A DNA stretch of 31,533 nucleotides, taken from a virus. The translations under genes and the position numbers were made by a program. Of this stretch, positions 14,777-27,167 are shown in pieces. Numbering within the stretch: the first letter of the stretch is position 1; each line of letters opens with the position of its first letter. The notes beneath the pieces were generated by a model. The model saw nothing but the letters and a program-made list of their open reading frames with translations, was not told where the DNA came from and made no database searches. The stretch is from positions 1 through 31,533 of the IMG/VR virus record IMGVR_UViG_3300044971_002050, one strand, 5' to 3'.

Positions 14777-15043
14777 TTATATTCCTTTAGCAAAAACTAC
14801 GGTTTCGTCATCTACAAAAACAGCATTCATTAGACATCTTGGGGGGAATTCAATCAGGGTACATTTCTTTGCAACACCAGAACGATATGTATTGAAAATG
14901 TTACTATGTATTGTTAGAAACTCTTCACTATTGTTAAACAGTATTAGGGCATCACCTTCAGAGAATTCCCCATGTTCTATGATTATGTGAACACAATTCA
15001 CAACATTAACTAGTTTGTTGGCATGTTCTTTCTTTAGAATCAT
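14777..15043 (-). CDS. Hypothetical small protein (88 aa)
   Basis: The start MILKKEHANKLVNVVNCVHI is followed by segments rich in acidic and hydrophobic residues (IIEHGEFSEGDALILFNNSE) and the end DDETVVFAKGI. No domain is recognised. The ATG overlaps the stop of the glycosyltransferase-methyltransferase gene by one base (TAATG), so translation is probably coupled. It could be a partner or regulator of that enzyme, but nothing in the sequence shows this. Confidence 0.6.
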   Translation of the reverse strand: MILKKEHANKLVNVVNCVHIIIEHGEFSEGDALILFNNSEEFLTIHSNIFNTYRSGVAKKCTLIEFPPRCLMNAVFVDDETVVFAKGI

Positions 15044-16389
15044 TATTTAACAGCTTCCAATCTGAAATTTTTACCTGGATGCTTTCCTATTGGTTGCAAT
15101 ATTTTAATGTCTTTAAATCCAATTACTTTACACAAATCAGTAAGTGATTGTGGTGTGTAACCCCAAAGATGTGGATATAACGCACCTTTTTCCCGTGTCT
15201 CAGCAGATTCTTCTTCTGCCGCAGCACCAAAAATACATGTCATCAAAGTTCTTTTTTCAACCTCATCTTTTGATTGAATATAATCTCTACACATTTCATC
15301 AAAATTCGGAGTTTCTAAAACAAGTTTACCGGAAGGTTTTAATGTTTTGTGCCATTTTTGCAGAATCTCTGGCGCACGATGTTGTGGCAAATGTTCAATT
15401 AAATGACTTGCAAGAATTTCGTCTGTAACATTTTCTGGTAAATCCATTTTTAAAACATCTACTTTAATGTCGGCATCTTTATTGTTTTTATCAACACTCA
15501 GATATCCTGGAATCTTGTCACCGCCAGAACCCATATTGAAACGGATTGGTTCTTTTTTATCCAATTTACTTTGAATGAAAGATTTGTAACTTGTGCCATC
15601 CGGCAATCTATCAATCCAACGACGGTCAATAAACTCTTTATCATCCAATGTTAGTGGACGAGTTGGTTTAATATTTGTATAATATTTTGTTAAATCAACG
15701 GAAGGATGTGCTGTATACATGCCTGTTGCTAAGTCCATATGTAGACATTGAACATCTGTATTTACAAGAAGCTTTGTTCCTCTCTTGTGTAGACGATGCA
15801 CAAAGAAGTTATCTTCACCGATAAATGGAATTTCGTCGTTGATGTTATTACCAATACAACAGAAAGGAAGTTCTGGTTCTTCTTCTTTCATTTGCTTGAG
15901 CAAATCAATCGGAACTAACATAACATCCATACCAGTTTGCCACGCTTCAATGACTTGACCGGGATCAACATTAGGAATAGTAATCCAATCTTCTTCACGA
16001 ACCATAATCATAGCATCGGAGCATTTAATATAATAAACTCCTGTAACAACTGCTCCAGGATTCTCTTCAGCAGTTTTCATAAGCTTTTTAAAGCCATCAT
16101 AAGGAAGTACAGTATCTTCGCCAACAAACAAAAGATACTTAGCACCGCTCTCTAATGCTTGTTCAATAAGATAGTTTCGTGCAACGTCAACTTTTTCACC
16201 GCCAATGTTGCAGAAACCGTGAGAGAATCCCATCAAATCAATATGAAGACCCTCATAACCGTCAAAATTTTGTGCAGGTGTTTCTTTTAAGTCTCTTCGC
16301 GGCTGTGCAATTACAACATACGGTTTGATTGTTTTAGATTCACTATAAATCTCTTTCATTGTGTTAATGATTTTGTCTCGATTATACAT
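15043..16389 (-). CDS. Fused glycosyltransferase (GT-A-like) and SAM-dependent methyltransferase
   Basis: Two-domain enzyme of 448 residues. The N-terminal half (about 22-235) looks like a GT-A glycosyltransferase: PYVVIAQP first strand, VDVARNYLIEQALESGAKYL, the acidic metal-site-like stretch LLFVGEDTVLP (E91/D92), and later GEDNFFVHRLHKRGTKLLVN with H217/D219. The C-terminal half (about 282-446) is a class I methyltransferase: glycine motif FNMGSGGDKIPGYLSVDK (G287-G290, D300), SHLIEHLP (328-335) and KPSGKLVLETPNF. It lies inside the fibre island, just downstream of the propeller proteins, with a GTGAGGA ribosome site. Virion or fibre glycosylation is a possible job, but host envelope modification is equally open. 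The metal-site assignment is tentative. Confidence 0.78.
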   Translation of the reverse strand: MYNRDKIINTMKEIYSESKTIKPYVVIAQPRRDLKETPAQNFDGYEGLHIDLMGFSHGFCNIGGEKVDVARNYLIEQALESGAKYLLFVGEDTVLPYDGFKKLMKTAEENPGAVVTGVYYIKCSDAMIMVREEDWITIPNVDPGQVIEAWQTGMDVMLVPIDLLKQMKEEEPELPFCCIGNNINDEIPFIGEDNFFVHRLHKRGTKLLVNTDVQCLHMDLATGMYTAHPSVDLTKYYTNIKPTRPLTLDDKEFIDRRWIDRLPDGTSYKSFIQSKLDKKEPIRFNMGSGGDKIPGYLSVDKNNKDADIKVDVLKMDLPENVTDEILASHLIEHLPQHRAPEILQKWHKTLKPSGKLVLETPNFDEMCRDYIQSKDEVEKRTLMTCIFGAAAEEESAETREKGALYPHLWGYTPQSLTDLCKVIGFKDIKILQPIGKHPGKNFRLEAVK

Positions 16390-16409: not shown

Positions 16410-17831
16410 TTAATATTTGTTAAAAAATGGCGATAAAACTCGACCTGGCGATATATTTATGCCCGTTGAAATCTTCTGTCCTATGTTTCCAGAAAAAGGA
16501 GCAAAATGAATATCACCATTCTGTGCAAGAACGCCTCCATAATGTAGCTGAGTTCCAGTAGTAATTAGAGAATAAGTTGTTACAACGCCATCAGCAGACA
16601 CTTTTTGTCCTACGATTGCACTAAAACGAATAAAATGAATATCACCATTAGGTGCAAGAACACCGCCAGAATAAGCCGCACCAGTAGTATAAACTAAAGA
16701 ATATGTTGATACGACACCAGCAGAGGATATTTTTTGCCCTCTGTTGGCACGATAAGGAACAAAATGAATATCACCATTCTGTGCAAGAACGCCTCCAAAA
16801 AATGCAGCATTTGCCGTTGTATAAACTAATGAATAAGTTGAAACAACACCAGCAGAGGATATTTTTTGACCTCTCTCAGCAAATGAAGGAACAAAATGTA
16901 TGTCACCATTGGGTGCAAGAACGCCACCTGCATAAGCAACGGTTCTAGTGTATACTAATGAATATGTTGATACAACGCCAGCAGCAGATATTTTTTGACC
17001 TCTCTCAGCATTAAAAGGCACAAAATGAACATCACCATTTGGTGCAAGAACACCACCCAGATAACCAGATGTGAGTGAATAAACTAAAGAATACGTTGAT
17101 ACAACACCCGATGCGGATATTTTTTGCCCTCTATTTGCATCATGAGGAATAAAATGGATGTCGCCATTTGGTGCAAGAACACCACCCCAGTATGCACCTT
17201 GACCATCAACACCAGCAGTAGTATAAACTAACGAATAAGTCGATACAACACCAGATGCAGATACTTTTTGACCCCTATTTGCGAAACCTGGAACAAAGTG
17301 AATATCACCATTAGGTGCAAGAACACCACCACGATAAGCTTGAGAAGTTGTATAAATTAACGAATAAGTTGATACTATACCGCCAACGCCACCATTATCA
17401 AATGGCGTACCTCTTATAACACCCTGTCTCAATTCCCTCTCTAGACCACGCCATGAAATTAAATTATTCGTGGTTGATGCATCATCTGAAGTAGGTATGG
17501 TTCCCGGAACAAGTTCTGCAGGAAAAGTTATTGTAACATTTTTAACGCCAGCTGGAAAATTAATTTTTCTACCATTATCTTGAGAATCCGAAATTTCATC
17601 TCTGGTTATGGTAAACTGCACGTTTGAATAAATGTCTGGTGAACTTACTTGAATGGTACCTATTCCAACTTCCCAACGCGATCCACTAGTAACGAAATAA
17701 TGAACTTTGTTATTAGCATCAGAAGCATTTAAAGTTCTATACTTGGATGTAGAGGTAGGAAACAATAATAAATCATTGTTACCTGTTGTAGCGGTTCCCA
17801 TTTGAACCAAATCTCTGACAATAAATGACAT
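16410..17831 (-). CDS. Propeller adhesin A: virion domain plus one seven-blade array (473 aa)
   Basis: The smallest of three related adhesins. Residues 1-110 form a single N-terminal virion domain common in phage structural proteins: TTGNNDLLLFPTSTSKY, then VTSGSRWEVGIGTI, then ITRDEI and INFPAGVKNVTITFPAEL. A linker ISWRGLERELRQGVIRGTPF (125-144) follows, then exactly seven repeats (about 152-457) of the STYSLxYT..GGVLAPNGDIHFVP..GQKIS type, and the end VLSPFFNKY. In this copy the virion domain is uninterrupted, unlike in the two paralogues upstream. A beta-propeller that binds a surface ligand is inferred. It lies 3 bases downstream of the 770-aa gene. Upstream of the ATG I see no strong ribosome site, so coupling is likely. 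Confidence 0.75.
   Translation of the reverse strand: MSFIVRDLVQMGTATTGNNDLLLFPTSTSKYRTLNASDANNKVHYFVTSGSRWEVGIGTIQVSSPDIYSNVQFTITRDEISDSQDNGRKINFPAGVKNVTITFPAELVPGTIPTSDDASTTNNLISWRGLERELRQGVIRGTPFDNGGVGGIVSTYSLIYTTSQAYRGGVLAPNGDIHFVPGFANRGQKVSASGVVSTYSLVYTTAGVDGQGAYWGGVLAPNGDIHFIPHDANRGQKISASGVVSTYSLVYSLTSGYLGGVLAPNGDVHFVPFNAERGQKISAAGVVSTYSLVYTRTVAYAGGVLAPNGDIHFVPSFAERGQKISSAGVVSTYSLVYTTANAAFFGGVLAQNGDIHFVPYRANRGQKISSAGVVSTYSLVYTTGAAYSGGVLAPNGDIHFIRFSAIVGQKVSADGVVTTYSLITTGTQLHYGGVLAQNGDIHFAPFSGNIGQKISTGINISPGRVLSPFFNKY
16454..16461 (-). promoter_or_regulatory. Possible late promoter of the glycosyltransferase gene (CATAAATA)
   Basis: CATAAATA on the minus strand, the same octamer as before the tail tube gene, lies about 65 bases upstream of the glycosyltransferase ATG, inside the 3' end of the 473-aa gene. 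Chance occurrence in AT-rich coding DNA is quite possible. Confidence 0.3.
16461..17378 (-). repeat. Seven-blade array of the 473-aa adhesin
   Basis: Seven units of 41-48 residues, each with STYSL-type start, GGVLAPNGDIHF core and GQKIS end. Unit 2 has a five-residue insertion. Unit 7 diverges (TYSLITTGTQLHYGG). Confidence 0.9.
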
Positions 17832-17834
17832 ATG

Positions 17835-20147
17835 TTATAACTTATTTAAGAATGAACCGAGTGCTATTTCACTATCTAGGGGTTTAGATAATGTGTATAT
17901 TTTTTGTGATACGCCGTTTTGTCCTACTGGAATAAAATGAATATTACCATCAAAATCTAAAACACCAAAAGAATATGGTCCTTGATTTGCGCCCATAGAA
18001 ATTGGTGTAACTGGATATGTAGATGCAACGCCATTTAAAGATATTTTTTGACCAATTCCCACACCCAAATCATCACGAGCTGCCCAAAATGGAACAAAAT
18101 GAATTTCACCATTTGGTGCAAGAACACCTCCAGCGTATGCATTGTTACGAGTGTATGCTAATGAATATGTCGAAACCACACCATCAATAGAGACTTTTTG
18201 TCCAACTCTTGCATCATAAGGAACAAAATGTATGTCTCCATTGGGTGCAATGACTCCACCAGCGTAGGCTTCAGTAGTAGTATATGCTAATGAATATGTA
18301 GACACAACACCTGATGCTGATATTTTTTGTCCAACAGGAGTAAGAAAAGGAACAAAGTGTACTTCACCATTTGGTGCAAGAACACCACCTTCATAATAAG
18401 CAAGGGTTCCAGTATTTACCAATGAGTATGTCGAAACTACACCAGTGGTAGATACTTTTTGGCCTATTCTTGAAGCCCAAGGCACGAAATGTATATCTCC
18501 ATTTGGTGCAACAACACCACCAACAAACGCCTCACCTCTTTGATACACTAATGAATATGTTGACACAACACCAGAAGCAGATATCTTTTGTCCAACAGTT
18601 GCATCGTTAGGTACGAAATGTATATCGCCATTAGGCGCAAGAACACCGCCCCAATAACCTCCATAAGCTATAACAGAATAAGTAGAACTAATACCAGTTG
18701 GAGATAATTTTTGTCCAATATTTACATTATATGGTACAAAGTGGATGTCACCATTAACTGCAAGAACACCGCCACTGTATGCGTTTTCAAAAGTATATGT
18801 CAATGAATATGTTGATGGAATAGGATTCTTGAATGTCGTTCCAGCTGTAATGCTTTTCATCAAACTTCTTTGAAGTCCTTTCCACGCATTTAAACTCGAA
18901 TCAATTGAAGAATCATCTGCCGTAGCAGCGGAACCTTGCACTAGTGTTGATGGCTGTGGAATATAAACACTTTTCGTGCCAGCAGAGAAATTTACTTTAT
19001 TATCATTGTTACTTGATGCAAGTACAAAGTCTCTTTCCATTCGAGGTGTTGTTATTTTTTGTCCAACTGTTGCATCAAATGGAACGAATTGTATGTTATT
19101 ATTTGCATCCAAAACACCACCAAAATAAGAAGTCGATGTGGTGTAAGCTAGTGAATATGTTGAAACAATGCCAGTGGTCGTTGAAATTTTTTGTCCAACG
19201 GGTGAACGATATGGAACAAAATGTATATCTCCATTGGGAGCAAGAACTCCGCCAGCGTGATATGCCAAAGTGTTGGTGTATATTAACGAATAAGTTGACA
19301 CAACACCAGTTTTAGATATTTTCTGTCCAACCGAAGCATTTTCCGGAATGAAATAAACATCGCCATTGGATGCAAGAACACCACTTTGATATGCATCAGA
19401 AGTAGTATATACTAATGAATATGTTGATACGACACCCGAAGTTGTTGAAATTTTTTGACCAATTTCAGATTCATTGGGAACAAAATGTATATCTCCATTT
19501 AAATCTAAAACACCACCGGCGTATGCATCCGATCTGGTATATACCAATGAATATGTTGACACGACACCAGCCGAGGATATTTTTTGTCCAACGGGTGCAT
19601 CTCTTGGTATAAAATGAATATCTCCATTTAAATCTAAAACACCACCATGATAAGCAAATGCTGTAGTGTATATCAACGAATATGTTGATACTACGCCTAA
19701 CGAAGACACTTTTTGTCCAACCGGACTGCCGCTAGGAACAAAGTGAATATCTCCATTTGTTGCAAGAACACCACCAATATGTGCTCCATTATCAGTATTT
19801 TGTGTGTATATCAATGAGTATGTTGAAACTACACCAGAAGCAGATATCTTTTGTCCAACTTCGGCAAATGAAGGAACAAAATGTATGTCACCATTTTGTG
19901 CGAGTACACCACCGTAATATGCATTATTACTTGTATATAATAGAGAATATGTTGACGGAATCTGCGTTTTTACTGTACCAACACCTATCTCAAAATTTGA
20001 TGCATCAGTAATTGCATAATAAGTTTGATTATTATTTCCAACATCTGAAAAATCAGTATATCCCGAAACAGTAGGTCCAAATAATATGGTACCAGTTCCA
20101 GTCGTATTCGATGTTACGTTCGCTCTATCTAAAGCAACAAAAGCCAT
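17835..20147 (-). CDS. Propeller adhesin B: virion domain split by one array, followed by a second array (770 aa)
   Basis: N-terminal residues 1-60 (TTGTGTILFGPTVSGYTDF, ITDASNFEIGVGTV) are the first half of the same virion domain as in the 473-aa paralogue. A seven-unit array (63-366) interrupts it. The second half resumes at RDFVLASSNNDNKVNFSAGT and SVYIPQPSTLV (372-403), followed by the linker NAWKGLQRSLMKSITAGTTF. A second seven-unit array (443-753) then runs to a conserved end EIALGSFLNKL. Some units replace GGVLAPNGD with GGVLDLNGD or GGVLATNGD. Blade 6 of array 2 carries a seven-residue insertion (WAARDDLGVGIGQK). It is probably a virion adhesin with two propellers and lies in the same operon as its neighbours. 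Confidence 0.75.
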   Translation of the reverse strand: MAFVALDRANVTSNTTGTGTILFGPTVSGYTDFSDVGNNNQTYYAITDASNFEIGVGTVKTQIPSTYSLLYTSNNAYYGGVLAQNGDIHFVPSFAEVGQKISASGVVSTYSLIYTQNTDNGAHIGGVLATNGDIHFVPSGSPVGQKVSSLGVVSTYSLIYTTAFAYHGGVLDLNGDIHFIPRDAPVGQKISSAGVVSTYSLVYTRSDAYAGGVLDLNGDIHFVPNESEIGQKISTTSGVVSTYSLVYTTSDAYQSGVLASNGDVYFIPENASVGQKISKTGVVSTYSLIYTNTLAYHAGGVLAPNGDIHFVPYRSPVGQKISTTTGIVSTYSLAYTTSTSYFGGVLDANNNIQFVPFDATVGQKITTPRMERDFVLASSNNDNKVNFSAGTKSVYIPQPSTLVQGSAATADDSSIDSSLNAWKGLQRSLMKSITAGTTFKNPIPSTYSLTYTFENAYSGGVLAVNGDIHFVPYNVNIGQKLSPTGISSTYSVIAYGGYWGGVLAPNGDIHFVPNDATVGQKISASGVVSTYSLVYQRGEAFVGGVVAPNGDIHFVPWASRIGQKVSTTGVVSTYSLVNTGTLAYYEGGVLAPNGEVHFVPFLTPVGQKISASGVVSTYSLAYTTTEAYAGGVIAPNGDIHFVPYDARVGQKVSIDGVVSTYSLAYTRNNAYAGGVLAPNGEIHFVPFWAARDDLGVGIGQKISLNGVASTYPVTPISMGANQGPYSFGVLDFDGNIHFIPVGQNGVSQKIYTLSKPLDSEIALGSFLNKL
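17889..18821 (-). repeat. Second seven-blade array of the 770-aa adhesin
   Basis: Exactly seven units. The first begins IPSTYSLTYTFENAYSGGV and the last (VASTYPVTPISMGANQGPYS) is degenerate. The core APNGDIHFVP is conserved in most units. Confidence 0.88.
19050..19961 (-). repeat. First seven-blade array of the 770-aa adhesin (inserted in the virion domain)
   Basis: Exactly seven units from IPSTYSLLYTSNNAYYGGV to DANNNIQFVPFDATVGQKI. It is flanked by the two halves of the domain that is continuous in the 473-aa protein. Confidence 0.88.
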
Positions 20148-20156
20148 ATTTTTTCT

Positions 20157-22628
20157 TTAAAGTTTGTTTAAAAATGGACTGAGACATGCATTCATAGGTA
20201 ATGGTGTACTAGGAAGTGTTGAAATCATTTGACCAACAGCATTTGTAGGTACAAAATGTATGTCACCATTAGGTCTGAGAATACCACCAAAATGAGAACC
20301 AGTGGCATTTGTATGTATCAATGGATATGTTGACACTACACCAGCAGCAGATATTTTTTGTCCTCGATTTCCCCACCAAGGAACAAAATGAATATCACCA
20401 TTTGGCGCAAGAACACCACCAGCATGAGCAAGAGTTGCAGTATACACTAACGAATATGTTGAAACGGTACCATTAATAGATATTTTTTGTCCTACAACAG
20501 CATTGGCAGGAATAAAATGTATATCACCATTTGGTGCAACAACACCACTCCAATAAGAACCACCGGAATTCGTATATATCAATGAATATGTTGACACTAC
20601 GCCAGCAGCAGATATTTTTTGTCCTCTGTTACCCTGTAACGGTACAAAATGTATATCGCCATTAGGCGCAAGAACACCACCACCATAAACGGCAGGACCG
20701 GTATAAACTAATGAATATGTTGACACAACGCCAGCAGCAGAGACTTTTTGTCCTCTTTCGGCACTATAAGGAATAAAGTGTACGTCTCCATTTGGTGCAA
20801 GAACACCACCACCATAAGAAGTGAGCGTTGTATATAGTAATGAATATGTGGATACAACACCGTTTATATTAATTTTTTGTCCTACTCTAGCACTATGAGG
20901 AATAAAATGTATATCACCATTTGGTGCAAGAACACCACCCAGATAAGCGTCGGAAGTATAAACTAATGAATATGTTGATACGACACCAGATGAAGAGATT
21001 TTTTGTCCTCTATTAGCCAGATAAGGAACAAAGTGAATGTCTCCGTTTGGTGCAAGAACACCACCACGATAAGAATTAGTAAGCGTATAACCCAAAGAAT
21101 ATGTCGATACAATTCCACCAACTCCACGATTATTAAATACATTACCGCCCAGAACGCCTTGTTCTAACAAACCACGAAATGCTCTCCAACCAGATAAATC
21201 CGGTCCAATTTCATTGTTATCCCCCGATGGAACACCACCAACGGCAACAGCATTTGGATAAACAACGTAAGGACCTTCGTATATGCTCGGAGTAAAATCA
21301 AAATCAACGGGATTATTATTATTTGATGAAGAATATACTGTGTCTCTAGTTATTGTATTGTAAGATAATTTTTGTATTTGATTGGCATTACGTGGAACAA
21401 AGTAAATATTTTTTGAAAACACCTCAATTACACCACCCTCATATGCTCCGGTAGTTGTGTAAGGTAAAGCATATGTTGTTACCATGCCACTGAAGGTTGA
21501 ATCAAAAGTTGATTGTTGAAATATTTTCTGACCGACTCTTGCATTATGTGGAACAAAATGAATACTGGGACCACTGTCTTCAGAACCATCAGGCAAAATT
21601 TGTGGACGACCTAGGTCGTCTAAAACACCACCAGAATATGCACCCGTTGTTGTATATGCAAGTGAATATGTCGTTACAATATTTTCAACTACTCCGTCTT
21701 GATTATAAGTACCCCTATTCGCATTGTATGGAACATAATGAGCATTACCTAAATAATCTAAAACAGCGCCTCGATAAGCACCAGCAGCGGTATAGGGTAA
21801 TGTATATGTTGTAATTACTGGAGGCGCTGATGTTGTTGTTTCGGGATCAGTATTAGCCTCTACTTTCATTCCTCGGTTTGCATTATAATTAACAAAGTTT
21901 GCAGCAAATGGACCTTGAAATCCACCCCAATATGCACCAGCTGTTGTATAGGGTAATGAATAAGTTGAAACTAAACCATAATCTGTTCCTTGGCCAACTC
22001 GTTGTCCCCTATTAGCATTGTGTGGAACAAAATGAATATGATCTTGTTGAAATGGATCCAGAACGCCGCCGGCATACGCTCCAGCCGTTGTATATACTAA
22101 TGAATAGGTTGATACAGTACCATTGAAATCTACTTTTTGTCCAACTCTTGCATTGTGGGGAACAAAATAAACATGACCATCATCACCAAGAACACCACCA
22201 ACATAAGCACCAGCAGTGGTGTAAATTAATGAATAGGTTGACACTACACCAGCGTCGGATATCTTTTGTCCAACAGTCGCATTGTATGGAACAAAATGAA
22301 TGTAACCATCATTTCCAAGAACACCATCCGAATACGCATCACTGATTGTATATGAAGCCCTTTGAGTGTAAACTCTAAAATCAGAAATATACAGTCTACC
22401 TTTTCCAACTTCCCAATCAGTTCCCGTACTCATAGAATAATATATACTATTTCCGGATGCAACATTGCTAAGACCAAAGCCTGTTCCTGCACCATCAATT
22501 CTCCAGTACGCTTGACCAGAGCTTAGTCCTGTTGGAAGACCAACAGGACCTGTTAATTGAAAATAAGTATTTTGAGTGGCGTATTGGTCAGTAATACCAT
22601 AAACTCTATTTCTAAAAATAACTGCCAT
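20157..22628 (-). CDS. Propeller adhesin C: virion domain split by a degenerate array, followed by a second array (823 aa)
   Basis: I chose the ATG at 22628 (MAVIFRNRVYG) over an upstream in-frame ATG at 22655. It overlaps the preceding stop as TAATG, has GGGGAA upstream, and matches the start of its paralogues. N-terminal residues carry the half-domain ending TGTDWEVGKGRLYI. A seven-unit array (about 85-422 in this numbering) interrupts it. The domain resumes at ITRDTVYSSSNNNNPVDFDF and VVYPNAV, then the SGWRAFRGLLEQGVLGGNVF linker. A second seven-unit array (506-804) ends in NACLSPFLNKL. Array 1 is unusually divergent: units 3-7 have long insertions and lose the APNGD core (for example GGFQGPFAANFVNYNANRG). 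It may have diversified to bind another ligand. Confidence 0.75.
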   Translation of the reverse strand: MAVIFRNRVYGITDQYATQNTYFQLTGPVGLPTGLSSGQAYWRIDGAGTGFGLSNVASGNSIYYSMSTGTDWEVGKGRLYISDFRVYTQRASYTISDAYSDGVLGNDGYIHFVPYNATVGQKISDAGVVSTYSLIYTTAGAYVGGVLGDDGHVYFVPHNARVGQKVDFNGTVSTYSLVYTTAGAYAGGVLDPFQQDHIHFVPHNANRGQRVGQGTDYGLVSTYSLPYTTAGAYWGGFQGPFAANFVNYNANRGMKVEANTDPETTTSAPPVITTYTLPYTAAGAYRGAVLDYLGNAHYVPYNANRGTYNQDGVVENIVTTYSLAYTTTGAYSGGVLDDLGRPQILPDGSEDSGPSIHFVPHNARVGQKIFQQSTFDSTFSGMVTTYALPYTTTGAYEGGVIEVFSKNIYFVPRNANQIQKLSYNTITRDTVYSSSNNNNPVDFDFTPSIYEGPYVVYPNAVAVGGVPSGDNNEIGPDLSGWRAFRGLLEQGVLGGNVFNNRGVGGIVSTYSLGYTLTNSYRGGVLAPNGDIHFVPYLANRGQKISSSGVVSTYSLVYTSDAYLGGVLAPNGDIHFIPHSARVGQKININGVVSTYSLLYTTLTSYGGGVLAPNGDVHFIPYSAERGQKVSAAGVVSTYSLVYTGPAVYGGGVLAPNGDIHFVPLQGNRGQKISAAGVVSTYSLIYTNSGGSYWSGVVAPNGDIHFIPANAVVGQKISINGTVSTYSLVYTATLAHAGGVLAPNGDIHFVPWWGNRGQKISAAGVVSTYPLIHTNATGSHFGGILRPNGDIHFVPTNAVGQMISTLPSTPLPMNACLSPFLNKL
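20217..21113 (-). repeat. Second seven-blade array of the 823-aa adhesin
   Basis: Exactly seven regular units, starting IVSTYSLGYTLTNSYRGGV and ending HFGGILRPNGDIHFVPTNAV. Cores are nearly identical; differences cluster before GG and between HFVP and GQK. Confidence 0.9.
21363..22376 (-). repeat. First seven-blade array of the 823-aa adhesin (divergent)
   Basis: Seven units counted from the recurring YT..GAY..G cores. Lengths range from about 43 to 65 residues because of insertions in units 3, 4, 5 and 6. It is the least conserved array, but the count is still seven. Confidence 0.8.
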
Positions 22629-23953
22629 TATATAGCATTCCCCATAATCACACAACTATTAGAAGTTGTAAACAAAATTGTTGCAATGCCTCTTGGTGAA
22701 AGAGATACACTAGAAACATCAGTATCAAATGCTGCAATGTAAGCTACAGCTATATCACATGTTATTGTTTTGCTAGTGCTTGTATTATTATAAAGTGTTA
22801 CAACATCATTTTCTGAAAATGTGTTGTTTGGTATCGTGATTGTACCAGCAACTTTAATATATTTTCCAACATCAGAAACTTGTAAAGTATAAAATGTTTT
22901 ATCTCCAGCCGATGGTATGTTTCTAAAACCAACAGTGAAATTTTCACCCGGAATCGTAACAGTAACGTTACTTGTAAGTGTGTCTGGTACAAGTGTTGCA
23001 GAATATGAACTAGTTCCACCATTTCTGCCTTTTAGAATAATAGCATCTTGTAAAATATCATTTTCTACTTTTATACCGACAGATGATCTAACGATAACAT
23101 TACCAGTAACAATACCACCATTGTTTGCATCTAAGGAGTTATTGGCACGAATAAATGCAGCATTTGCACTATTGAATGCTGCATTGGCTTGAATGAATCC
23201 AGAATTAGCATGATCAAATGCAGCGTTTGCTTGTATGAATCCTGAATTCGCATGATTGAATGCAGCATTAGTACGTGCAAAAGAAGTGTTAGCTTGAATA
23301 AATCCTGAATTAGCGTGGTCAAATGCTGCATTGGTTTGAATAAATCCACTGTTTGCTGTAATAAAAGCAGCATTTGTTTGAGTGTAAGCTGTGTTGGTTT
23401 GCGTGAATCCAAAATTAGCATGTACAAACGCTGAGTTGGCTTGAATGAAACCAGAATTAGCATGGTCAAACGCAGCATTAGTTTGAATAAAACCAGAATT
23501 GGCATGTATAAATGCTGCATTTACAGAATCATATGCAGAATTGGTTTTTATAAAACCAGAGTTTGCATGAATAAATCCAGCATTTGCGTGATCATATGCG
23601 GGTTGCACCTTTTGTATTAGCGGTAGAAGATTTGCACCCTTCTGATAAATCTCGTTTGCGTAAATACTAACTGTCGATAAATTTCTTCCAACAGTTAAAT
23701 CTAGTTGAATATTTACATTACTCTCACTAAATCTGGTATTACCAATGTTTGCAGTATTTGCTTGCAGAGTATTAATATTCGCAAGTGTACGAACGTTTAA
23801 TGATGCACCTTCACCTTGAATGAAGATTGAAGAGTTGGCAATAAGACCGCCACTAGCATTACTTGTAAGACTGTTGGCAACTTCAATTAATGAAGAAGTT
23901 GCTTGCAACCAGTCTGTAAATGTATTCGAAGTTGATAGTTGATTTATTGCCAT
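22628..23953 (-). CDS. AN-repeat fibre without propeller arrays (441 aa)
   Basis: N-terminal domain (1-120, MAINQLSTSNTFTDWLQATS, RTLANINTLQANT, LDLTVGRNLS) is shared with the 1064-aa protein. A helical AN-heptad array follows (118-272) and ends in the IRANNSLDANNGG cap. The C-terminal beta domain contains TLTSNVTVTIPGENFTVGFR, then IKVAGTITIPNNTFSENDVV and the end SLSPRGIATILFTTSNSCVI. The protein aligns along its whole length with the 1064-aa neighbour once two propeller arrays are removed from the latter. It therefore represents the uninterrupted backbone. Probably a trimeric tail fibre or baseplate adhesin; function is inferred from repeats and context. Confidence 0.75.
   Translation of the reverse strand: MAINQLSTSNTFTDWLQATSSLIEVANSLTSNASGGLIANSSIFIQGEGASLNVRTLANINTLQANTANIGNTRFSESNVNIQLDLTVGRNLSTVSIYANEIYQKGANLLPLIQKVQPAYDHANAGFIHANSGFIKTNSAYDSVNAAFIHANSGFIQTNAAFDHANSGFIQANSAFVHANFGFTQTNTAYTQTNAAFITANSGFIQTNAAFDHANSGFIQANTSFARTNAAFNHANSGFIQANAAFDHANSGFIQANAAFNSANAAFIRANNSLDANNGGIVTGNVIVRSSVGIKVENDILQDAIILKGRNGGTSSYSATLVPDTLTSNVTVTIPGENFTVGFRNIPSAGDKTFYTLQVSDVGKYIKVAGTITIPNNTFSENDVVTLYNNTSTSKTITCDIAVAYIAAFDTDVSSVSLSPRGIATILFTTSNSCVIMGNAI
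23131..23603 (-). repeat. AN heptad array of the 441-aa fibre
   Basis: About 21 heptads of F-x-x-[AT]-N-[SA]-[AG] with a 21-base DNA period. Stretches such as GFIQANAAFDHANSGFIQA are nearly identical to the third AN array of the 1620-aa fibre. Confidence 0.8.
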
Positions 23954-23972
23954 TTTTGTTTTCTAAAAATAA

Positions 23973-26900
23973 TTACTCTAATTCTATTATTGTTCCAGAT
24001 AAAACACAACTGTCAATGTCTGTAAACATGATTGTTACGATACCTCTTGGACCAATTTTAACACGAGATACATCTGTATTTATTCCCGCAATATATGACG
24101 TTGTTATAGCTCCACAATTAATATTAACGTTTCCTCTACCGTTATTTACAATCGTGATCACATCACCATCAGTAAATGTTGCTGCTGGAATGTTTATTGT
24201 TGCAAATGTTGAAGATTTAACTTGTTTACCTAAATCATCTCTACCAAGCGTGTGTTCGGTTGATAATGTTATTTTTTGACCACGAAAACCATCGTCTGGA
24301 GCAAGATGAACTTCACCATTTGGTGCAAGAACACCACCACTATAATCAAGAGGTGTGGCAACTGCATAAGTGGATATTATTCCAGAAGATGATATTTTTA
24401 ATATTCTATTAGCATCACCAGGAAGAAAATGAATGTCACCATTCGGTGCAAGAACACCACCATTATAAGCACTTTGTTCCAGCACGTTAAATAAAATTGA
24501 ATAAGTGGATACTACACCAGAAGCAGAAACTTTTTGTCCTCTATTTGCGTTATATGGAGCAAAATGTATGTCACCATTTGAATCAAGAACACCACCATAA
24601 TATGCGCTCGAAGTAGTATATGCTAGTGAATATGTTGACACAACACCCGATGCGGATATTTTTTGCCCTCTATTTGCATCTTGAGGAATAAAATGGATGT
24701 CGCCATTTGGTGCAAGAACACCACCCCAGTATGCAAAACTCGTTGTGTATACCAACGAATAAGTGGATACTACACCAGCCGATGATATTTTTTGTCCTCT
24801 GTTTGCGCTACGGGGAACAAAATGAATATCACCATTAGGTGCAAGAACGCCACCAGCATATGCACGACTCGTTGTGTATACCAACGAATAAGTGGATACT
24901 ACACCAGCCGATGATACTTTTTGTCCTCTATTGGCAAGAAAAGGAACAAAATGTATATCACCATTCTGTGCAAGAACACCACCAGAATATGACCCACCAG
25001 TTGTATATACTAACGAATATGTTGATACCACACCGGCTGTAGATACTTTTTGTCCAACTGGCGCATTAAACGCAACAAAATGAACATCACCATTTGGATC
25101 AAGAACACCACCAGAATAAACTGCTGGAGTTGTACTAGTGTATACTAGTGCATATGTTGAAACTATATCAGAGTAAACGAATGCATTTGCTTTTGGTATA
25201 TTTCTGAAACCTACTGTAAAGGATTCATTTGGAATAGTTACAGTCACATTTGCAGTCAATGTGTTTGGTGTTAGATTTGCGGTATTTGCTCCTGTTCCAC
25301 CAATAGGATTTTTGATTATGATAGAATCTTGTCCAGCAGCAACTTCAGTTTTTATACCTTCAGTCGATCTTATTGTAAGATTAGCGAAATCATATGAATA
25401 TGTCTTTGATAAGTCTAATTTTAATCCAAAACTACTGGAATATGGAACTGGAATTAGTTCTTTATTTGTATTTAAAACTCCGCCAAAAAATCCACTGGCA
25501 GCGATAGATGGTAATGCATACGTTAAAACAATACCGTCAGATGTTATTTTTTGTCCTCTGTTAGCATTAAAAGGCACAAAATGTATATCTCCATTTGGTG
25601 CAAGAACACCATCAACATAAGCATTAGTTACCGTATACAGCAATGAATAAGTAGATACCACACCAGCAGATGATACTTTTTGTCCTACTCTAGCACTAAG
25701 AGGAATAAAATGAATATCACCATTGGGTGCAAGAACACCACCTGCATAAGCGCCTAAAACAGTGGTATATACCAAAGAATAAGTTGTGACAACGCCGCTA
25801 GATGATATTTTTTGTCCTACTATTGCTCTATTAGGAACAAAGTGAATGTCACCATTTTGTGCAAGAACACCACCTTGATAAGCGGAAGAAGTTGTATATA
25901 CTAATGAATAAGTTGAAACTACACCAGCGGAAGAGATTTTTTGTCCAACTCTTGCAAAATTAGGAACAAAGTAAATTTCTTCATTAGTTGCTAGAACACC
26001 ACCTGCATAAGCACTTGTGGTAGTATATGCTAATGAGTAAGTCGATACAACACCAGCAGAAGATATTTTTTGTCCAACTCTTGAACTATTGGGAACAAAG
26101 TGAATGTCTCCATTAGTTGCTAGAACACCACCATTATGAATACCAGAAGCCGCAGATGTTGTATAAGCTAACGAATATGTTGATACTACACCAGCAGCAG
26201 ATATCTTTTGTCCTATATCAGCTTGAAGAGGTACAAAATGCACATCACCATTAGGTGCAAGAACACCACCGCCATAAGACTGGCCAAAAAATCGAGTATA
26301 GACCAATGAATAAGTTGAAAATGCAGGTGTAGCAGTTACCAATCCGCCATTGTTTGCATCTAATGAATTATTAGCACGAATGAATGCTGAATTCGATTGT
26401 GTTAACACAACATTTGCGTATGCAAATTGAGAATTGGCAGCAGCAAATGATAAATTGGCTTGAGGAAACGTTACATTTGCTTGAACAAATGCAGCATTAC
26501 TCAAAGCAAATGCAGCATTCGATTGTATAAACTGTGAATTTGTATAATCAAATGCCGTATTAACTTTAATAAAACTAGAATTGGCATGATTAAATGAAGA
26601 ATTTACATGATTATATGCAGCATTGGATTGTATAAATTGGCTATTTGCGTGATTATAAACTGCATTAGATTGTATGAATGCAGAATTGGAACGAACAAAT
26701 GCGGAGTTAGATTTTACAAATTCTGCGTTTGCATGATTAAAGGATGAATTTGTATGATTATATGCAGAATTTGATTGAACGAAAGTAGAGTTTGCATGTA
26801 TAAATTGTGCATTTGCCTGATCATATACACTTATTGCTTCATCTAAATTGTTAAAAACAAAAATCGTATCAGCGTAAAGAGTATTGGCTGTTAGTTTTCT

Positions 26901-27167
26901 TCCAACGGTTAAATCTAATTCAACCGATGCATTGCTTTTTCCAAAATAAGAATTAGCAATATTGCCCGTGTTTGCCCTCAGTGTATTAATGTTCGCATGT
27001 GTTCGAACATTAATTGAAGATTGATTACCTTCAATTGAGATTGAAGAGTTTGCTAAAAATCCACCGTAAGTATTGTTGGTAAGATTATTAGCAACAGCAA
27101 TTAATCCGGAAGTTGTTGACAACCACTCTTCAAAAGTGTTTGCGGATGTAAGTTGGTCTATTTTCAC
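23973..27167 (-). CDS. AN-repeat fibre with two inserted seven-blade arrays (1064 aa)
   Basis: The start is GTG at 27167, one base after the stop of the 73-aa gene. Order: N-terminal domain shared with the 441-aa protein (1-116, MKIDQLTSANTFEEWLSTTS, RTHANINTLRANT, LDLTVGRKLT); AN-heptad array (117-270) with the IRANNSLDANNGG cap; propeller array 1 (282-586); backbone segment with TLTANVTVTIPNESFTVGFR (636-655); propeller array 2 (667-969); and C-terminal LGRDDLGKQVKSSTFATINI to GPRGIVTIMFTDIDSCVLSG. Both arrays have exactly seven units. The two insertion sites correspond to points that are continuous in the 441-aa paralogue. Probably an adhesin with a helical stalk and two ligand-binding propellers. 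Confidence 0.78.
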   Translation of the reverse strand: MKIDQLTSANTFEEWLSTTSGLIAVANNLTNNTYGGFLANSSISIEGNQSSINVRTHANINTLRANTGNIANSYFGKSNASVELDLTVGRKLTANTLYADTIFVFNNLDEAISVYDQANAQFIHANSTFVQSNSAYNHTNSSFNHANAEFVKSNSAFVRSNSAFIQSNAVYNHANSQFIQSNAAYNHVNSSFNHANSSFIKVNTAFDYTNSQFIQSNAAFALSNAAFVQANVTFPQANLSFAAANSQFAYANVVLTQSNSAFIRANNSLDANNGGLVTATPAFSTYSLVYTRFFGQSYGGGVLAPNGDVHFVPLQADIGQKISAAGVVSTYSLAYTTSAASGIHNGGVLATNGDIHFVPNSSRVGQKISSAGVVSTYSLAYTTTSAYAGGVLATNEEIYFVPNFARVGQKISSAGVVSTYSLVYTTSSAYQGGVLAQNGDIHFVPNRAIVGQKISSSGVVTTYSLVYTTVLGAYAGGVLAPNGDIHFIPLSARVGQKVSSAGVVSTYSLLYTVTNAYVDGVLAPNGDIHFVPFNANRGQKITSDGIVLTYALPSIAASGFFGGVLNTNKELIPVPYSSSFGLKLDLSKTYSYDFANLTIRSTEGIKTEVAAGQDSIIIKNPIGGTGANTANLTPNTLTANVTVTIPNESFTVGFRNIPKANAFVYSDIVSTYALVYTSTTPAVYSGGVLDPNGDVHFVAFNAPVGQKVSTAGVVSTYSLVYTTGGSYSGGVLAQNGDIHFVPFLANRGQKVSSAGVVSTYSLVYTTSRAYAGGVLAPNGDIHFVPRSANRGQKISSAGVVSTYSLVYTTSFAYWGGVLAPNGDIHFIPQDANRGQKISASGVVSTYSLAYTTSSAYYGGVLDSNGDIHFAPYNANRGQKVSASGVVSTYSILFNVLEQSAYNGGVLAPNGDIHFLPGDANRILKISSSGIISTYAVATPLDYSGGVLAPNGEVHLAPDDGFRGQKITLSTEHTLGRDDLGKQVKSSTFATINIPAATFTDGDVITIVNNGRGNVNINCGAITTSYIAGINTDVSRVKIGPRGIVTIMFTDIDSCVLSGTIIELE
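24261..25169 (-). repeat. Second seven-blade array of the 1064-aa fibre
   Basis: Exactly seven units from IVSTYALVYTSTTPAVYSGG to GEVHLAPDDGFRGQKI. It includes two neighbouring units with 50 identical bases (start points 129 bases apart), and one unit nearly identical in DNA to a unit of the 473-aa gene. Confidence 0.9.
25410..26324 (-). repeat. First seven-blade array of the 1064-aa fibre
   Basis: Exactly seven units, from FSTYSLVYTRFFGQSYGGGV to a degenerate last unit (TYALPSIAASGFFGGVLNTN). It is flanked by backbone segments continuous in the 441-aa paralogue. Confidence 0.9.
26355..26819 (-). repeat. AN heptad array of the 1064-aa fibre
   Basis: About 22 heptads, with more Ser and Gln variants (FVQSNSAYNHTNSSFNHAN) than in the other arrays. 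It ends in the cap IRANNSLDANNGG, which is shared with the 441-aa protein and nearly so with the 1620-aa fibre. Confidence 0.75.

Follow-up and report, generated by a model that had tools for sequence, protein, structure and literature searches.

Seven-unit arrays in the structural genes of a T4-like phage: predicted seven-bladed beta-propellers with one variable face

The propeller locus

The window analysed here is the whole of a 31.5 kb stretch of viral DNA, IMG/VR record IMGVR_UViG_3300044971_002050, and it features four propeller genes, all on the minus strand (Table 1). These genes are flanked by T4-like tail, terminase and DUF4815/phrog_358 genes, which together form a virion structural module. 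The terminase is ~55% identical to cyanophage terminases, and the sheath protein is ~55% identical to the sheath proteins of Stenotrophomonas, Pelagibacter and Methylophilales phages. Judged from these two proteins, the phage is T4-like. No close DNA match to the window was found among GenBank phages, and psbA, a sign of a cyanobacterial host, was looked for and not found. A pattern scan of bacterial and archaeal genomes found no relatives of the propellers.

Table 1. Coordinates of the propeller genes, their arrays and associated genes in the window
Feature	Position	Strand	Description
448-aa glycosyltransferase-like and methyltransferase protein	15043..16389	-	phrog_34859; Pfam methyltransferase; directly downstream of the last propeller gene
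473-aa protein	16410..17831	-	uninterrupted N-terminal domain (WEVGIGT...TRDEI), one 7-blade propeller, ...FFNKY tail
Array of the 473-aa protein	16461..17372	-	residues 154-457, 7 units; unit HMM
770-aa protein	17835..20147	-	N-terminal domain split by propeller 1, propeller 2, tail ...SFLNKL
770-aa propeller 2	17898..18815	-	~residues 445-750; 28 strands, model 444-750
770-aa propeller 1	19050..19955	-	~residues 65-366; 28 strands, model 63-364
832-aa ORF	20157..22655	-	TTG start; 823 aa from ATG at codon 10
832-aa propeller 2	20217..21107	-	residues 517-813, 7 units
832-aa propeller 1	21348..22364	-	divergent, 7 units; ends approximate
441-aa protein	22628..23953	-	AFxHANSGFIQ repeats, no blades; insert-free paralogue of the 1064-aa protein
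1064-aa protein	23973..27167	-	GTG start; 441-aa architecture with two inserted propellers
1064-aa propeller B	24267..25160	-	~residues 670-967; site equivalent to 441-aa residues 349|355
1064-aa propeller A	25413..26318	-	~residues 284-585; site equivalent to 441-aa residues 283|285

In the 832-aa ORF, the N-terminal domain is split by a divergent propeller, and a second propeller is followed by the tail ...SPFLNKL. The C-terminal end [LIVMF]NK[FLY] is found on 110 of the 113 distinct tails of proteins that end with a propeller (window positions 16410-22655 and relatives), and it is also present in distant Cylindrospermopsis phages. The 441-aa gene sits within the propeller interval and is absent from an earlier note on this DNA. 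Both the 1064-aa protein and its 441-aa paralogue contain numerous short, fibre-like repeats of the AFxHANSGFIQ type. Weak Pfam matches to bCoV_NSP1 and DUF1161, as well as the match of the 441-aa protein to the phrog_18811 'toxin', were discarded as matches to repetitive sequence.

The 448-aa glycosyltransferase-like protein has no close relative among GenBank phages. In related loci its gene is tightly linked to the propellers: a relative starts 12-75 bases past the last propeller gene in 85 of the 87 loci with room for it, and a reverse search with the 448-aa protein found a propeller directly upstream in 56 of 56 such loci, both counts including several loci from the same contigs. That the protein modifies the propellers is a natural guess from this gene order; the linkage may reflect the shared ancestry of these phages.

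Unit number and predicted fold

Splitting at the STYSL motif in combination with a unit HMM determined that the four genes encode 49 units of ~43 residues in seven arrays. Each unit features four predicted strands, D at positions 1-5 (STYSL), A at ~13-18 (YxGGVL), B at 24-28 (IHFVP) and C at 33-37 (xGQKI), and the first strand of each array is a D strand, the last a C strand. Three of the proteins score above the curated cut-off of 50 bits for the Pfam family Vgb_lyase (PF24684), namely the 473-aa protein (E 2.4e-16, 59.9 bits), the 832-aa ORF (E 1.6e-22, 80.1 bits) and the 1064-aa protein (E 1.9e-28, 99.6 bits); the 770-aa protein is not listed. A sequence search of the PDB with the 473-aa protein matched structures 2qc5 (1e-11) and 2z2n/p of virginiamycin B lyase (Vgb), a seven-bladed propeller of solved structure.

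An AlphaFold model of the 770-aa protein, built from 24 sequences and of moderate confidence (pLDDT 76, pTM 0.48), features 28 strands (7 x 4) in each array; the model starts at residue 2, so that its numbers are one below those of the protein. Foldseek superposed the model on full-length 2qc5 with a TM of 0.87 and an rmsd of 2.7 over 307 columns, and on Vgb entries including 2z2p with a TM of 0.85-0.88, the full-length superposition being reported for single arrays, one at a time. The best viral fold match of this model is a collagen-repeat protein of Hokovirus, a giant virus (BFVD A0A1V0SG21, rmsd 2.2 over 314 columns).

The earlier note had proposed seven arrays of exactly seven units each, forming seven-bladed propellers. 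The unit HMM confirms the count (7 in the 473-aa protein, 7+7 in the 770-, 832- (823-) and 1064-aa proteins), including the divergent first array of the 832-aa ORF, and the strands of the model and the Foldseek match to Vgb agree with the predicted fold. The same note had named a fold other than a closed propeller, and widely varying unit counts among homologous arrays, as evidence against this reading, and both checks came out in its favour. Scans of viral contigs found 162 distinct complete arrays of exactly seven units in related IMG/VR contigs (156 clusters at 90%). Two continuous arrays deviate, one with six units (L005) and one with five (L081, in which the N-terminal domain is cut short), both in metagenome assemblies in which similar repeats may have collapsed. 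Three interrupted arrays sum to seven, one broken by a frameshift (L006) and two (L025 and L030) by the insertion of a domain along with a further gene. Other runs in the relatives have 14 and 21 units, or have a divergent seventh blade that was recognised by eye. So constant a number goes far beyond what chance would give. The model, the sequence matches and these counts give good support to the propeller reading, and we hold it to be likely that each array closes into a seven-bladed beta-propeller related in sequence to the Vgb lineage, with a fixed scaffold and one variable binding face.

Insertion of whole propellers into other domains

Two comparisons with insert-free proteins bear on how the propellers are placed. 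The 441-aa protein aligns with the 1064-aa protein in three pieces (residues 3-283, 285-349 and 355-441), and propellers A and B lie in the gaps. The N-terminal domain is whole in the 473-aa protein, whereas in the 770- and 832-aa proteins a propeller separates its WEVG strand from the strand that follows; in the 770-aa protein the insertion falls between the strands FEIGVGT, which is of the WEVG type, and RDFVLASS. By these comparisons, insertion of a whole propeller into another domain has taken place at least four times. With D as the opening strand of an array and C as its closing one, the last blade is expected to be completed by the first strand, which would thereby close the ring. The two ends of the array would then meet at the C-D, or bottom, side, so that a hairpin loop in a different virion protein could take up a whole propeller while the variable top face of the propeller would point away from the side of attachment.

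The longest runs suggest a further step. In one relative (L022, represented by two near-identical contigs), runs of 14 and 21 blades at L022:7989-11222 and L022:11226-15581 have irregular seams after units 2 and 9 in the first and after units 3, 8, 15 and 17 in the second, always in the C-D turn and exactly seven (or fourteen) units apart; the seams of another relative (L069) agree. Propellers that simply follow one another would place the seams at 7/8 and 14/15, and the observed pattern is that expected of a propeller within a propeller. From the positions of the seams it is possible that the L022 propellers are nested two and three deep. A test of unit similarity is weakly supportive of nesting: with array 1 of the 770-aa protein as the reference, one of several used, the outer 2|5 split fits best (869, against 847 for the highest-scoring contiguous set).

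In two other relatives (L025:10180-12882 and L030:10225-12511), a Gly_rich_2-like domain with a stop breaks into blade 5 of the third propeller gene, the Pfam match to Gly_rich_2 being below the cut-off. An ORF that starts inside blade 5 and carries the last 2.5 blades follows this domain, with a 161-aa gene in between in L025. The interruption is an apparent replacement of an adhesin module.

The variable face and the role of the propellers

Variation within the units is concentrated in two segments. The entropy computed from 629 units of 43 residues averages 1.75 bits in the D-A loop and 2.32 bits in the B-C loop, compared with 0.53 bits in the A-B turn, 0.90 bits in the C-D turn and 0.15-0.62 bits in the strands. 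Eight positions per blade (9, 10, 11, 14, 29, 30, 32 and 33) hold most of the entropy. In beta-propellers the D-A and B-C loops are on the same side of the ring, opposite the A-B and C-D turns. By this topology the variable positions share one face of the predicted ring, and the two variable segments, which the earlier note had taken to be ligand-facing loops, correspond by their entropy to D-A and B-C.

Two cultured relatives, the Cylindrospermopsis isolates Cr-LKS4 (g13) and CrV-01T (gp012), allow the variation to be followed between close genomes. Their shared locus is 97% identical, and they are two isolates of one cyanophage species; Cr-LKS4 has a laboratory host, C. raciborskii KLL07, of which resistant substrains exist (PMC10811720). 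Each has exactly seven GGVLAPNG blades, which form the end of a protein of 1130-1138 aa (L053:5556-8948 and L054:4550-7966), with variable sites equivalent to those of the window and a ...SLNKF/I tail. These proteins differ from those of the window in that they are ~35% identical to them, feature one propeller per protein and belong to a different type of phage. Between the two isolates, 13 of the 14 scored variable codons have changed, all of them non-synonymously, compared with 4 of 182 scaffold codons, one of them silently, and the B-C loop has changed in all seven blades. The 800 codons ahead of the blades carry 32 amino-acid changes and 6 silent ones, which indicates fast change beyond the blades too, although its density there is far lower.

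A diversity-generating retroelement was considered as the source of this variation and was not found in the phage genomes searched; one borne by the host is conceivable. No reverse transcriptase was found in the genomes of Cr-LKS4 and CrV-01T, and no RVT_1 was found in 17 related records, many of them fragmentary. A template repeat was not detected in either cyanophage genome, in which a scaffold 20-mer matches the seven blades only (at up to 2 mismatches).

It is plausible that the propellers are adhesins, and receptor binding is their most likely role. The propeller proteins would be located on the tail or the fibres of the virion, the variable face would bind molecules of the host surface, most likely glycans, and changes on that face would track changing receptors, so that the propellers probably grip changing host surfaces. 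A different reading, that the propellers are structural or decoration domains which stabilise or space other parts and bind no specific host molecule, is unlikely. The immunoglobulin-like decorations of other phages are likewise present in many copies in loops, as are these propellers in the loops of fibre-like proteins, and the conserved [LIVMF]NK[FLY] end suggests a fixed assembly. The concentration of non-synonymous change on the loops between the two isolates is not expected of a passive spacer.

The propellers could instead be enzymes, for instance Vgb-related lyases or glycan-cleaving enzymes whose variable positions adjust the substrate specificity. The nearest family in sequence, Vgb lyase, is an enzyme, and as we read the alignments its active site lies on the face of the variable positions. 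However, the pattern E12-x-H14, which we take to correspond to the Vgb catalytic pair from phmmer alignments and active-site numbering, is present in 0 of 299 units, and Glu is found at position 28 in none of them and at position 29 in three. The PDB title of 2z2p names H270A as inactive; a literature search on Vgb with its active-site residues returned no match. The arrays are filed as having a Vgb-like fold and not as lyases because the catalytic His and Glu are absent, and seven near-equivalent blades, none of which keeps a catalytic position, are more in keeping with binding. We rate an enzymatic role as slightly less probable than a decorative one.

The likeness of the blades, which are 80-86% identical to one another at scaffold positions, could also stem from a tandem duplication that is recent, drifts and lacks a fixed architecture. 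Between genomes, silent codon identity amounts to 0.42 compared with 0.41 expected from codon usage, and within arrays it is 0.53 compared with a within-genome expectation of ~0.47. In the window the values are 0.62 within arrays and 0.59 between arrays, compared with 0.50 expected. High silent-site identity, the signature of recent amplification of one blade, was not found. As silent sites are near saturation, with an identity close to the expectation from codon usage, it is mainly selection that keeps the blades alike, and most of their likeness does not come from recent duplication; given also seven units in each of 162 arrays, drifting duplication is hardly credible. In Cr-LKS4 the scaffold codons are identical across all seven blades, whereas the blades of CrV-01T vary, which suggests that the blades of Cr-LKS4 were recently homogenised, the one case in which this was seen.

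Comparison with known propellers separates what is familiar from what is new. Vgb (PF24684; PDB 2qc5, 2z2n/o/p) resembles the arrays in its seven blades, its ~42-residue units and its significant sequence similarity. The arrays differ from Vgb in that they have no catalytic signature, have near-identical rather than divergent blades and are arrayed and inserted in phage structural proteins. The receptor-binding protein Gp45 of phi11 uses a propeller platform with a putative sugar cavity for host recognition (PMC4901313); unlike the propellers of the window, it is five-bladed and trimeric with one propeller per chain. For PhiKZ gp131C (PDB 4GBF), compared by description, the paper describes no repeated cassettes or variable face. 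Highly repetitive beta-propellers likewise have nearly identical blades, and their blade numbers form a continuum from 2 to 47 (Pereira and Lupas 2022, PMC9218822), whereas the phage arrays hardly ever depart from seven and owe the resemblance among their blades mainly to selection on the protein sequence. A literature search with the unit motif found no match.

The fold and the count are thus known kinds of thing, and what is new is that a fixed seven comes together with one variable face, insertion as a cassette and a tightly linked gene of a modifying type. A tentative extension, which we rate as possible and short of probable, is that the propeller is a mobile cassette and a general display scaffold, with a hypervariable face, a plug-in face, nested rings as in L022 and possibly a dedicated glycosyltransferase. 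The usual view of phage host recognition is that it shifts when entire tips are swapped or when fibre loops acquire point changes. The symmetric ring seems to be a reusable frame, which presents ~56 variable positions on one face and is inserted as a unit. The propellers are a natural scaffold on which to study the evolution of a binding face while the fold stays fixed, a question that the cultured cyanophage pair makes testable now.
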